Shown here: one piece after another, positions 4,487-18,910 of the stretch
Layout: each line of letters opens with the position of its first letter
Position numbering within the stretch: the first letter of the stretch is position 1
From: Hankyongella ginsenosidimutans
GTDB lineage: Bacteria > Pseudomonadota > Alphaproteobacteria > Sphingomonadales > Sphingomonadaceae
Length of the DNA stretch: 64,000 nucleotides
Direction of reading: 5' to 3'
NCBI RefSeq assembly: GCF_005144965.1
Contig: NZ_CP039704.1
Span: 2,816,810 to 2,880,809, forward strand
Position numbers and translations under genes: made by a program
Notes under the pieces: model-generated
Databases searched by the model: none
Told to the model about the DNA's origin: nothing
Seen by the model: the letters and a program-made list of their open reading frames with translations, nothing else

Positions 4487-5552
4487 TTAAAGCATCAAAG
4501 GCCCGTGCTGGATTTTCGGCAGGACATGGCGTGCCACCATGTCGCACTCGTTGATGTGCGGATAGCCGGAAAGGATGAAGGCATCGATGCCTTCCGCCTG
4601 ATAGGCGCGCAGCTTCGCCACCACCTGATCGGGGTCGCCGACGATGGCCGCGCCACAGCCTGAGCGCGCCCGGCCGATGCCGGTCCAGAGATTGGCCTCG
4701 ACATAACCGTCGTTTGCTTGCGCTGCAGCCCGCAGCTCTGCCTGTCGGGTGACGCCGACACTCTGACTATCCAGCGATTTCTGGCGGATCTGCTCGCCGG
4801 TCGCCGCGTCGAGCTTGCTCAGCAGCTTGTCGGCGTATGCCCGTGCCTCCGCTTCCGTCTCCCGCACCACCATGTGGGCGCGGTAACCGAACTTCAGCGT
4901 GCGGCCGTATTTCGCAGCCCGCGCCGTCATGTCGGCGATGATCGCCCGCACATTCTCCATGGTGTCCGGCCACATGAGATAGACGTCGCAGCCTTGCGCG
5001 GCGGCTTCGCGGGCGTCCTCGCTCAAGCCACCAAAGTACAGCGGCGGGCAGACGCCGGCAGTGGTGGAGACACCGGGCGGATCGAGCTCGAGTTGATAGA
5101 ATTCGCCCTTGTGGCTGAGGTGTTCGCCGCGCAGCATCGTCTTAAGGATATGCATGACCTCGACCGTGCGATCATAGCGCGCCTTGCTGGGCAGCGTCTC
5201 TCCGGGAGATCCGACGAGATGATGTTGACCGTCAGCCTGCCGCCAAGAATGCGGTCCAGAGTCGCCACGCGGCGCGCCAGTTGCGGCGGCCAGTCCTCGC
5301 CGACCCGAACCGCCCACAGCAGCCGCATGCGGCGCACCAGCGGCGCGATGGCACCGGCGAACGCTGTCGTGTCGATGCCAAGCTGATAGCCGGAGGGCAG
5401 CAGGATGTTGTCGAAGCCGCCCTTCTCCGCCTGCAGCACGATGTTGCGGCAGTGCTCCCAGCTCGACTTCAGCATCGGGTCGGGAACGCCGAGGAACTCG
5501 TAGTCGTCGTCGCAGAGGGCGGAAAACCAGCTGATTTCGCAGGGGTCGTCAT
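4487..5552 (-). CDS. smoC: SsuD-like LLM-class flavin monooxygenase, probable sulfoquinovose monooxygenase (SmoC-type)
   Basis: This is a two-component FMNH2-dependent monooxygenase of the alkanesulfonate monooxygenase family. The proposed reaction is oxygenolytic C-S cleavage of sulfoquinovose to 6-oxo-glucose plus sulfite. Visible family features are FGYRAHMVVRET (the SsuD-type active-site Arg and His), WTGIGRARSGCGAAIVGD (flavin phosphate region) and ILSGYPH (active-site Tyr). The N-terminus ISWFSALCDDDYEFLGVPD and length of about 354 residues fit. The ATG at 5552 overlaps the TGA of the upstream reductase (ATGA). One base appears lost in the CCCC run just after the start, and another near 5200. 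Substrate assignment is inferred from the adjacent sulfoquinovosidase and aldo-keto reductase. A generic alkanesulfonate or another sulfosugar is the alternative. Confidence 0.78.
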
Positions 5553-6454
5553 GGCAGGGGCGCTCCTTTCGCGGCGACGAAAACCTTGTACCAGTCTGTG
5601 CGGGTCCAGACGACCTTGAAGGCGTCGGCGGCCTCGGCGATCCGATGCGGCTGCTGCGAGCCGACGATCGGGATCGGGCGCGCAGGATGCGCCATGATCC
5701 AGCTGTAGGCGACGGCAGCGCGCGACACAGCAAACTGCGCGGCGATCCGGTCCAGTTCATCGATCACGGCCTGCTCGCGCGGGGTTCCCGCCTGGCTGAT
5801 CCGGCCTCCGCCAAGCGGCGACCACGCCAGCACGGCCAGGTTCCGCCGCATCGCCTGGTCCAGCTCGCCGTTCTCGATGGGGTCGATCCGGAACGGCGAC
5901 AGTTCCGGCTGGCTGGAGACCAGCGCAAACGGCAGAGCGGCCTGCAGGGCCTCGATCTGGTCGACCGTATGGTTCGAGACGCCGAACGCGCGCACCTTGC
6001 CCGCCTTCTGCGCGTCTTCCATGGCACGCGCGACCTCCTGCGGGTGCGTCAGGATATCCGGCCGGTGAACCTGCCAGAGGTCGATCTGCTCGACCTGCAG
6101 GCGCTTCAGCGAGATGTCGATCGCCGCGCCGAGATAGTCCGGGCTCGAATCGTACGGAACGCCGAGGACGATGCCGCCCTTGGTCGCCAGCACCATGCGC
6201 GAGCGCAGTTCCCGGTCCGCTGCAAACAATCGACCCAGCAGCAGTTCGGCGGCACCGAAGCCGCCCTGATCGACACCGTAGATATCGGCGGTGTCGAACA
6301 ACGTAATCCCGGCATCGAACGCCGCATCGACCAGCGCGCGGGCCGCCCTCAGGTCGTCGCCGTGGAACCGCCACATGCCCCAGGCGATGGAAGAGACTTC
6401 GATGTCGGTGTCGCCGAGCGTGCGACGTATTGGGACGGCGGATAAGGTACTCAT
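5549..6454 (-). CDS. smoB: Aldo-keto reductase, probable 6-oxo-glucose (SQ-pathway) reductase, SmoB-type
   Basis: An intact 301-residue NAD(P)H-dependent aldo-keto reductase. The catalytic tetrad is visible: Asp and Tyr in DTADIYG, Lys in LATKGG, His in WQVHRPD. The cofactor-binding C-terminal motif is PIPIVGSQQPHRIAEA. In the oxidative sulfoquinovose pathway described in Agrobacterium, the AKR SmoB reduces the aldehyde made by the monooxygenase to glucose, and the context supports the same role here. The gene overlaps both neighbours by four bases (ATGA at 6451-6454 and 5549-5552), implying translational coupling within a sulfoquinovosidase-regulator-AKR-monooxygenase operon. Unlike its neighbours it carries no frameshift. 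Confidence 0.8.
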   Translation of the reverse strand: MSTLSAVPIRRTLGDTDIEVSSIAWGMWRFHGDDLRAARALVDAAFDAGITLFDTADIYGVDQGGFGAAELLLGRLFAADRELRSRMVLATKGGIVLGVPYDSSPDYLGAAIDISLKRLQVEQIDLWQVHRPDILTHPQEVARAMEDAQKAGKVRAFGVSNHTVDQIEALQAALPFALVSSQPELSPFRIDPIENGELDQAMRRNLAVLAWSPLGGGRISQAGTPREQAVIDELDRIAAQFAVSRAAVAYSWIMAHPARPIPIVGSQQPHRIAEAADAFKVVWTRTDWYKVFVAAKGAPLP

Positions 6455-17431: not shown

Positions 17432-17450
17432 CAACCACCGGGGAGCCGCC

Positions 17451-18910
17451 ATGACCAAGCCCGTGTTTCTCGTGATCGACGAAGGAACTACCTCGACCCG
17501 TGCCATGCTGATCGATGCGTGTGGCACCATGCTGGGCGAGGCGCGCAGCGAACTGGTGCAGCATTGCCCTGCCCTGGCATGGTCGAACACGATGCCGAGG
17601 AGATCTGGCAGAAGACCCTCGACTGCGCACGGCAGATGGTCCGGCAGGCCGGCGGCGCGGACAGGATCGCTGCCCTCGGCATCACCAACCAGCGCGAGAC
17701 GACGGTCGCCTGGGACAAGCGCAGCGGGAAGCCGCTCTGCCACGCCATCGTCTGGCAGGACCGCCGAACCGCGCCCCATTGTCGACGCCTGCGTGAATCC
17801 GGCCAGGAAGCCGTGGTGCAGGCCAAGACCGGCTTGCTGCTGGACGCCTATTTCAGCGCGACCAAAATGGTCTGGCAGATGGAGAATGTACCGGCCGTAC
17901 AGGAAGCTGGCGCGCATCTCGCCTTCGGCACAGTCGATCCTATCTGATCTTCCGTTTGACCGGCGGCCTGCATGTCTCGGACGCCAGCAACGCCAGCCGG
18001 ACCATGCTGCTGGCGCTGGACGGCGCGGACTGGGATACCGACCTGCTCGCCCTGTTCGGTATCCCCGGCACACGCTGCCACAGATCGTCGACTGCGCCGG
18101 CGCGCTCGGCATGACCGATCCCGCGCTGTTTGGCGGCGCAATCCCCATCTGCGGCGCGGCCGGTGACCAGCAGGCCGCCACCATCGGCCAGGCCTGCCTG
18201 CGGCTCGGCGACACCAAAGCGACCTTCGGCACCGGGGCGTTCGTGCTGGCGAACGCCGGCCCGGTGATCCCGCGCTCAGGCCATCGCCTGCTCTCCACCG
18301 TGCTGCACCAGCTCGGCGGCGTACGTCATTACGCCCTGGAGGGTCGGTCTTCGTGGCTGGCAGCCTGATCAAGTGGCTGCGCGATGGTGTCGGCATGCTG
18401 GCATCGGCGGCCGAGACCGAGGAACTGGCGCGCGCGGTGCCCGACAACGGCGGCGTGTACTTCGTGCCTGCGCTGTCCGGGCTTGGTGCGCCGCACTGGC
18501 GGCCGGACGCGACCGGCCAGATCAGCGGGCTGACCTTCGCCACCACCAAGGCGCATATCGCCCGTGCCGCGCTGGAGTCGGTCAGCACGCAGGCCCATGA
18601 CCTGAAGGAGGCGTTCGCCGCCGACCAGGTGCGCTGGGAGCGCCTCAAGATCGACGGCGGCATGGCGGCAAACGACTGGCTGGCGCAGGATCTTGCGGAT
18701 ATCCTCGATCTGCCGGTCGAGCGGCCGGATTTCGTGGAGACCACGGCGCTGGGCGCCGCCATGCTGGCCGGCGTCGGCGTCGGTGTGTTCGCCTCGCTCG
18801 AGGATGCAACAGCGATGCGCAAGGGCTTGCACAGCTTCATGCCGTCGATGGCACCGGAAGTCCGCCAGAAGCGCCTCAGCGGCTGGCGGGCCGCGCTCGC
18901 CCGACTTTGA
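17451..18910 (+). CDS. glpK: Glycerol kinase GlpK (frameshifted)
   Basis: FGGY-family kinase phosphorylating glycerol to sn-glycerol-3-phosphate. Signatures are IDEGTTSTRAML (phosphate loop, usually DQGTTSSR; the Gln is Glu here), GITNQRETTVAWD (glycerol-binding Arg-Glu), IVWQDRRTA (Trp), CGAAGDQQAATIGQA (catalytic Asp) and FGTGAFVLANAG. The C-terminal domain has VPALSGLGAPHW and DGGMAANDWLAQ. Length is normal. Frameshifts lie near 17578, 17942, 18062 and 18345. GGGAG is 5 bases upstream of the ATG, and the gene follows the RibB-like ORF by 19 bases. Its position in the SQ operon suggests it takes the glycerol freed from SQGro. Confidence 0.92.

Follow-up and report, generated by a model that had tools for sequence, protein, structure and literature searches.

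We analysed a stretch of 64,000 nucleotides from Hankyongella ginsenosidimutans (contig NZ_CP039704.1, positions 2,816,810 to 2,880,809; hereafter the window), which carries a predicted locus for the use of the plant sulfosugar sulfoquinovose (SQ) and of sulfoquinovosyl-glycerol (SQGro). All eleven genes of this locus were found between position 4487, the stop of the monooxygenase gene, and position 18910, the stop of the glycerol kinase gene (Table 1). An earlier note on this DNA had named the same eleven genes within about 14 kb, and all are present as judged from Pfam matches and relatives, the MFS permease through a weak match of one piece and the NADPH-dependent flavin mononucleotide (FMN) reductase through its relatives. 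The layout was read as four transcription units, and not as the two operons proposed in that note: GH31-LacI-aldo-keto reductase-monooxygenase on the minus strand, the TonB-dependent receptor on the plus strand, the MFS permease on the minus strand, and YeiH-GlpD-FMN reductase-RibB-like protein-GlpK on the plus strand.

Table 1. Predicted genes and operator sites of the sulfosugar locus (positions in the window)
Feature	Position	Strand	Basis and remarks
SsuD-like LLM monooxygenase, predicted SQ monooxygenase (SmoC/SquD-like)	4487..5560	-	PF00296; best solved relative 7olf/7oh2; frameshift near 5195, start approximate
Aldo-keto reductase, predicted 6-dehydroglucose reductase (SmoB/SquF-like)	5549..6454	-	PF00248; best solved relative 7bbz/7bby
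LacI-family regulator	6597..7523	-	PF00356, PF13377; 3' end looks frameshifted
GH31 sulfoquinovosidase (predicted), frameshifted	7524..9552	-	PF01055, PF21365; C-terminal part 519/517 bits to 5ohy/5ohs; GRRLFWDW
Operator 1, TTATGACAACGCTTGACATAT, between GH31 and TonB receptor genes	9648..9668	+	predicted site
TonB-dependent receptor	9925..12133	+	PF07715, PF00593; frameshifts near both ends, ends approximate
MFS permease, frameshifted	12297..13615	-	PF07690, 28.6 bits on one piece, below the cut-off of 33.4
Operator 2, ATATGACACCGCAAGACACAA, between MFS (-) and YeiH (+) genes, overlaps the likely YeiH start codon	13714..13734	+	predicted site
YeiH-type membrane protein, predicted sulfite/sulfate exporter	13716..14775	+	PF03601, 164 bits (cut-off 24.5); end approximate
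Glycerol-3-phosphate dehydrogenase GlpD, frameshifted	14773..16261	+	PF01266
NADPH-dependent FMN reductase, frameshifted	16258..16817	+	PF03358-like by relatives
RibB-like protein, frameshifted	16814..17431	+	PF00926; motifs; fold of the relative in L049
Glycerol kinase GlpK, frameshifted	17451..18910	+	PF00370, PF02782

Each of the three core enzymes found its best match among solved structures in an enzyme of the sulfo-SMO pathway. For the monooxygenase and the aldo-keto reductase these are the entries 7olf/7oh2 and 7bbz/7bby, which, together with 7ofx, we take to be structures from the sulfo-SMO study. The C-terminal part of the window monooxygenase scored 222/216 bits against 7olf/7oh2, compared to 153 bits against MsuD and 145 bits against SsuD. 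For the full-length monooxygenase of a related locus, L009, the scores were 368/360, 199 and 177 bits, respectively, and a grouping with SsuD was not borne out by these scores. Among curated models, that of alkanesulfonate monooxygenase fitted the L009 protein best, though at 241.8 bits the match stayed far under the cut-off of 518.2. The aldo-keto reductase of the window reached 157 bits against 7bbz/7bby (next entry, 145 bits) and that of L009 185 bits against 7bby (next unrelated entry, 144 bits).

The C-terminal part of the GH31 protein lies nearest to the sulfoquinovosidase of Agrobacterium (Table 1), and the intact GH31 protein of L009 scored 823/820 bits against this enzyme versus 594 bits against YihQ of E. 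coli. The window encodes the sulfonate-pocket segment GRRLFWDW in an adjacent frame; aligned via L009, this segment matches RLFW in the Agrobacterium enzyme. The Arg and Trp of the segment are kept, as are DFGEYLP and GDQ with the catalytic Asp; the roles and numbers of these pocket and catalytic residues are presumed. Together, these matches support the oxidative SQ route of the sulfo-SMO type that the earlier note had proposed, with enzyme activities that are predicted.

A scan of public genomes with the monooxygenase yielded 58 loci, 50 of them under sphingomonad names. Within the order Sphingomonadales the monooxygenase was present at 460 bits or more in 54 of 296 genomes, including the genome studied here (hereafter SmoC-positive genomes), and two more genomes matched at 50% identity. 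In many relatives its gene is linked with those of the sulfoquinovosidase and the aldo-keto reductase. Around the RibB-like gene of 22 relatives, we found genes for GH31, LacI and the receptor in all 22 cases and GlpD in 18. When 20 of the 31 SmoC-positive genomes without a RibB-like gene were mapped, YeiH was near the locus in 8. GlpD was nearby in 5, in one case at 35% identity, and GlpK in 4, one of them a match of 42%. Relatives of the MFS permease occupy the same place, at 64-68% identity in L097, L101, L110 and L111 and at 39-44% in others. Two actinobacterial contigs (L056, L057) encode a SmoC-like monooxygenase 58-59% identical to that of the window; within 10 kb of it, tblastn gave no match to the other window genes.

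The FMN reductase of the window is 66% identical to the reductase of L049 over residues 3-146 of the latter. This PF03358-like reductase is linked and conserved; no solved or curated reductase is a good match for its relatives, and the L009 protein matched the SsuE, MsuE and ArsH models weakly, far under the SsuE and MsuE cut-offs. In six genomes (G183, G225, G227, G229, G270 and G281), relatives 50-52% identical were found by coordinates beside SmoC without a RibB-like gene, and a reductase of this family may therefore serve the pathway alone. The role of the FMN reductase in the pathway is supported through gene pairing only. Both glycerol genes, glpD and glpK, gave sole matches in their own genome, each seen twice through an overlap of the contig ends. 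At its likely start (MATHLHYC...) the GH31 protein has no signal peptide that is obvious by eye, so that glycerol would be freed inside the cell, within reach of GlpK and GlpD.

Furthermore, we searched the loci for shared regulatory sites. Between the GH31 and receptor genes, TGACACCGCTWGACA was found in all 60 scorable regions of relatives and in the window (61/61), exactly in 57 regions and with one mismatch in four, the window among them. The 60 regions come from 100 scanned loci; in the others one gene, the facing arrangement or sufficient contig was missing. Judged by length, three or more pairs of loci are the same contig (L174/L018, L172/L027 and L175/L014), so that at most 57 of the operator regions are independent. 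In the window, the 21-bp site occurs twice with up to three mismatches (Table 1), compared to 0.00 matches in shuffled sequences. With the looser pattern TGACAMCGYDNGACA, 56 sites were found in 46 loci and none with the reversed control; an earlier weight-matrix scan of sites had missed L114, L115 and L120 and took in the further SmoC loci L184 and L185. In 12 whole genomes we found 22 matches, four of which are the locus studied here seen twice: 20 lie within the stretches around the locus, one 1.5 kb outside and one elsewhere. The reversed pattern gave one match in the same genomes.

Of 20 relatives with a receptor-side accessory unit, a class defined after the maps were seen, 15 have a second site ahead of this unit, whichever gene leads it (YeiH, GlpD or FMN reductase; L097, L098, L101, L110-L112, L114-L116, L119, L120, L160, L162, L163 and L177). 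Not counted here are L009, L030, L109 and the loci with accessory genes after the monooxygenase. In L009 the site lies in the gap between the monooxygenase gene and glpD, before the latter, and in L030 before the MFS gene, with the partner gene beyond the stretch. No site was found in the gap after the monooxygenase gene of L109, or before accessory genes that directly follow the monooxygenase gene (e.g. L049, L102-L106). GlpD is the first gene past the second site in L009, L110 and L111. Because operator copies precede both the GH31/receptor region and the accessory unit, we predict one regulon: the transcription units of the locus are likely controlled together by LacI, whose binding to the sites we infer. 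Of the extra genes with which the earlier note had extended the pathway, GlpD and the exporter are thus tied to the locus by synteny and by the shared operator; GlpK recurs less often. Operator-like sites away from the known genes of the set, at L118:19722 and G190:C1:2664278, possibly mark further regulon members.

The RibB-like protein belongs to PF00926, the family of 3,4-dihydroxy-2-butanone 4-phosphate (DHBP) synthase. According to the available text of PMC5228156, both metals are bound by Glu-39 of DHBP synthase, mutants of which lost activity in two organisms, and His-154 coordinates one metal; the Arg of the RENEGD motif contacts the phosphate and its Asp the polyol of the substrate, and the His also contacts the phosphate. 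The first Glu of RENEGD, the metal ligand, is lost in 23 of 24 readable RibB-like members, L073 being the one that keeps it, and the second is replaced by Asp in 24/24 (L088, with a gap over this N-terminal motif, was left out of the count). Neither the metal-binding His of GHTEA nor the Glu of CEI is kept in any of 25 members. In canonical controls, RENEGD, GHTEA and CEI were intact in 9/9 proteins. The pieces readable in the window are RLRGGDID, AVEA and CAV. Retained in the subfamily are the Arg and the last Asp of RENEGD, the Cys, the His of GHVFPL and the Glu of TEA. In addition, a new loop motif, [S/T]GRP, was found as SGRP in 45/45 members of one alignment and as SGRP or TGRP in the 25 of the other. 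Among the 120 database members listed out of 7,991 above threshold, which were picked by similarity, all have the new motif and none has RExEGD or GHTEA; wherever the source named them, the name was that of a riboflavin enzyme.

An AlphaFold2 model of the RibB-like protein of L049 (pLDDT 84.8, pTM 0.86) matched 47 PDB entries at E <= 0.001, all of them DHBP synthases. In sequence, RibBX of A. baumannii matched best among the solved structures (157.9 bits), and in fold it came third. The RibB-like proteins of L009 and of Erythrobacter sp. EC-HK427 (L059) scored 153.9 and 169.2 bits, under the curated RibB cut-off of 177.45. The ratio of nonsynonymous to synonymous substitution rates (dN/dS) had a median of 0.28 over 139 pairs, with values of 0.07-0.19 in pairs of low dN and of at most 0.46 among the 25 pairs listed; pairs with dS below 1.2 were kept, distant pairs being near saturation. 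The gene thus seems to be under purifying selection. By its residues and its modelled fold, the RibB-like protein is a DHBP-synthase fold without the defining metal ligands, and we do not class it as a DHBP synthase; it likely does a different job. Flavin supply, which the earlier note had named among the functions of the extra genes, is supported for the reductase through gene pairing and is probably not the role of the RibB-like protein in view of the loss of the RENEGD Glu, the GHTEA His and the CEI Glu; a separate canonical RibB is also encoded in the genome.

In a profile search, the RibB-like subfamily was found in 23 of the 296 genomes of the order, from 11 genera besides its own: 22 genomes at 236 bits or more, and the genome studied here, whose frameshifted copy (207 bits in part) was identified from its motifs. 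One more member, if frameshifted or divergent, could be hidden among the proteins with canonical scores. All 23 genomes are among the 54 SmoC-positive ones, a nesting with a chance of about 1e-19 if shared ancestry is ignored. The FMN reductase gene lies directly upstream of the RibB-like gene in 22/22 loci, compared to 0/8 loci for canonical RibB. In 22 of 25 RibB-like genes a start codon is present that would give a 4-bp overlap with the reductase stop, which is also seen in the window (16814-16817). Outside the order, we found no RibB-like member in a sample of 385 genomes of the class (query L049, E <= 1e-50), a search in which a divergent member could be missed; eight genomes matched, that of H. 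ginsenosidimutans included, and the other seven are canonical by motif.

We consider it probable that the locus imports SQGro and turns all of its carbon into central metabolites, and that the RibB-like protein no longer makes DHBP; substrates, fluxes, LacI binding and the role of this protein are predictions made from the genes. The TonB receptor and the MFS permease would bring SQGro into the cell, where the apparently cytoplasmic GH31 enzyme would release SQ and glycerol from it. Reduced FMN from the FMN reductase would serve the monooxygenase, which would cleave the C-S bond of SQ to give sulfite and 6-dehydroglucose, and the aldo-keto reductase would convert the latter to glucose. GlpK and GlpD would consume the freed glycerol, and the YeiH-type protein would export sulfite or sulfate. 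Acting at the shared operator, LacI would likely keep all units repressed as long as no SQ-derived inducer is bound. We read the RibB-like protein as a repurposed DHBP-synthase fold with a predicted role in sulfosugar desulfonation. For this role, a metal-free accessory of the reductase/monooxygenase step, with the old site residues partly kept and the new [S/T]GRP loop, is favoured because the reductase and RibB-like genes stay together in 22/22 loci while the rest is reshuffled, and because the two genes mostly overlap by 4 bp.

Several observations weigh against this picture. The RibB-like gene is absent from 31 of the 54 SmoC-positive genomes, so that it is not required for the pathway, and relatives of the FMN reductase 65-73% identical occur in five genomes without a match to the SQ monooxygenase or the RibB-like protein (L179-L183, corresponding to G266, G255, G198, G288 and G162). 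Around the RibB-like gene of relatives, GlpK was found in 4/22 and YeiH in 12/22 neighbourhoods (one weak), and the YeiH protein of L009 scored 107 bits, under the NCBIfam TIGR00698 cut-off of 232.6. Regarding the operator, seven of the 46 scanned loci have no site at all (L168-L171, L173, L176 and L178), no second site was found in five of the 20 receptor-side accessory units (L059, L107, L159, L166 and L167), and the second sites deviate from the first at the central bases. The 15-bp core alone, with three mismatches, gave six matches in the window compared to 2.32 expected, which is not significant (4 of 100 shuffles reach six). Finally, frameshifts split most genes of the locus in this indel-rich assembly.

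The role of the RibB-like protein is where other explanations come closest. The main rival is that it is a sulfosugar enzyme itself, for instance a metal-free mutarotase or isomerase of SQ, in whose old anion-polyol pocket the sulfonate of SQ would replace the phosphate of ribulose 5-phosphate. The retained Arg and Asp of RENEGD, which contact phosphate and polyol in DHBP synthase (PMC5228156, available text), the new conserved loop and the finding of the protein only with the SQ locus in the order sample would fit this idea. The 31 SmoC-positive genomes that do without the protein, the pairing of its gene with the reductase gene and not with GH31, and the loss of the phosphate-contacting His speak against it, and we regard it as possible, although doubtful. 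That the protein is still a DHBP synthase, boosting riboflavin and FMN for the monooxygenase through different residues, appears quite unlikely. The same fold, the adjoining FMN reductase gene, the retained Cys, GHVFPL His, RENEGD Arg and Asp and TEA Glu, and the first RENEGD Glu of L073 are consistent with such an activity. However, it would have to withstand the loss of the metal Glu (23 of 24 readable members), of the His and of the further Glu (25/25 each) and the lack of RExEGD and GHTEA in the 120 database members listed, picked by similarity; enzymes mutated at the Glu are inactive in two organisms (PMC5228156, in the text available). The separate canonical RibB of the genome and the scores of L009 and L059 under the curated cut-off also argue against it.

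Regarding the rest of the locus, PF00296 covers many specificities and the best curated model is an alkanesulfonate monooxygenase, though far under cut-off; the locus could in principle use a different sulfonate or glycoside and scavenge sulfur with a monooxygenase for alkanesulfonates or methanesulfonate. The score of the L009 enzyme against 7olf (368 bits, compared to 177-199 bits against SsuD/MsuD) and the linkage to the sulfoquinovosidase and the aldo-keto reductase in many relatives make this very improbable. It is also unlikely that GlpD and GlpK are housekeeping glycerol genes sitting here by chance: as sole matches in their genome, with GlpK in few neighbourhoods, they could be seen that way, but GlpD recurs in 18/22 RibB-like neighbourhoods and in some without a RibB-like gene, and is the gene that the second site directly precedes in L009, L110 and L111. 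Returning to the RibB-like protein, we see about even chances that sphingomonads turned DHBP synthase into a metal-free, sulfosugar-dedicated protein that would bind the anionic sugar or the flavin reductase and enable the oxidative desulfonation of SQ in these hosts, a new function on an old fold.

With respect to the assembly, the contig start repeats the contig end: positions 1-32127 of the window correspond to positions 7888-40000 of the 2.88-Mb contig with an identity of about 99.8% and differ from them in some indels. Since the two copies differ in indels, some of the frameshifts, at least, are assembly noise, and since the start repeats the end, the genome has one sulfosugar locus and not two; the extra monooxygenase and RibB-like matches, considered as a second SQ locus, are this repetition. 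The redundant ends probably reflect a circular chromosome and may inflate the contamination estimate. Cross-matches in a self-comparison of the window revealed a dispersed repeat of about 70-140 bp, with copies at 1184-1257, 27014-27087, 41587-41725, 50790-50913 and 54818-54888; the copy at 1184 holds the palindrome TTTCAGATTGAATCAATCTGAAA. Just past GlpK lies a tRNA gene on the minus strand (18953-19024), and positions 1273-4354, also on the minus strand, hold a long frameshifted gene region that by eye resembles a PutA proline dehydrogenase.

SQ ranks among the most abundant organosulfur compounds (PMC12890257, available part). The sulfo-SMO or sulfo-ASMO pathway has been described in Agrobacterium and in Novosphingobium aromaticivorans (PMC9594981, available part), and in SQ incubations 13C-labelled Novosphingobium was detected whose reference genomes are predicted to carry the pathway (PMC13372026, available part). 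In the open literature, we found only work on E. coli for SQ together with LacI and operator, nothing on point for SQ together with TonB-dependent transport in the texts available, and, with few subscription papers included, no paper that combines SQ and dihydroxy-2-butanone. The earlier note had held the gene combination to be undescribed; this stands for the full combination within the literature searched, whereas the core is described for Novosphingobium (PMC9594981) and a glycerol kinase for the SQ cluster of E. rectale (PMC11968277), in the available parts of both sources.

Compared to known systems, the locus shares with sulfo-SMO the FMN-dependent SQ monooxygenase, the aldo-keto reductase and the sulfoquinovosidase, and one of the two characterised hosts is a sphingomonad (PMC9594981, available part). 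Beyond this core it has linked GlpD and GlpK, a YeiH-type exporter, the PF03358-like reductase, the RibB-like protein and two operator copies, and a TonB receptor and MFS permease in contrast to the SQGro ABC transporter characterised in Agrobacterium. The Novosphingobium cluster, compared here by its description in a review, is without SsuE (PMC9594981, as far as available). The sulfo-SFT cluster of E. rectale also serves SQGro use, with a sulfoquinovosidase of family GH31 and a glycerol kinase possibly acting on the freed glycerol, but follows the sulfoglycolytic transaldolase route, whereas oxidative desulfonation by a monooxygenase is predicted here (PMC11968277, available part). The pairing of an LLM monooxygenase with an FMN reductase recalls SsuD/SsuE and MsuD/MsuE, although the monooxygenase is nearer to SmoC and the L009 reductase far under the SsuE and MsuE cut-offs. 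The pathway itself is known, and this locus varies it in layout through the TonB receptor, the glycerol genes and two shared sites. The shared site offers a rule, at the level of sequence, for recognising the SQ regulon of sphingomonads and tells which neighbours belong to it.

The RibB-like subfamily is the part that looks new. It has the fold of RibB and RibBX (PF00926), but has lost the metal-binding Glu and His and another Glu, has gained the [S/T]GRP loop, stands alone and has an FMN reductase gene as its partner. Both the residues and the neighbouring genes contradict the riboflavin-enzyme naming of the family, and the protein could prove to have a so far unrecognised part in the flavin-dependent cleavage of C-S bonds. 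A similar loss of conserved residues and activity in a DHBP-synthase domain is described for RIBA3 of Arabidopsis, which keeps an active GTP cyclohydrolase II domain, whereas the RibB-like protein has no other domain (PMC3509567, available part).

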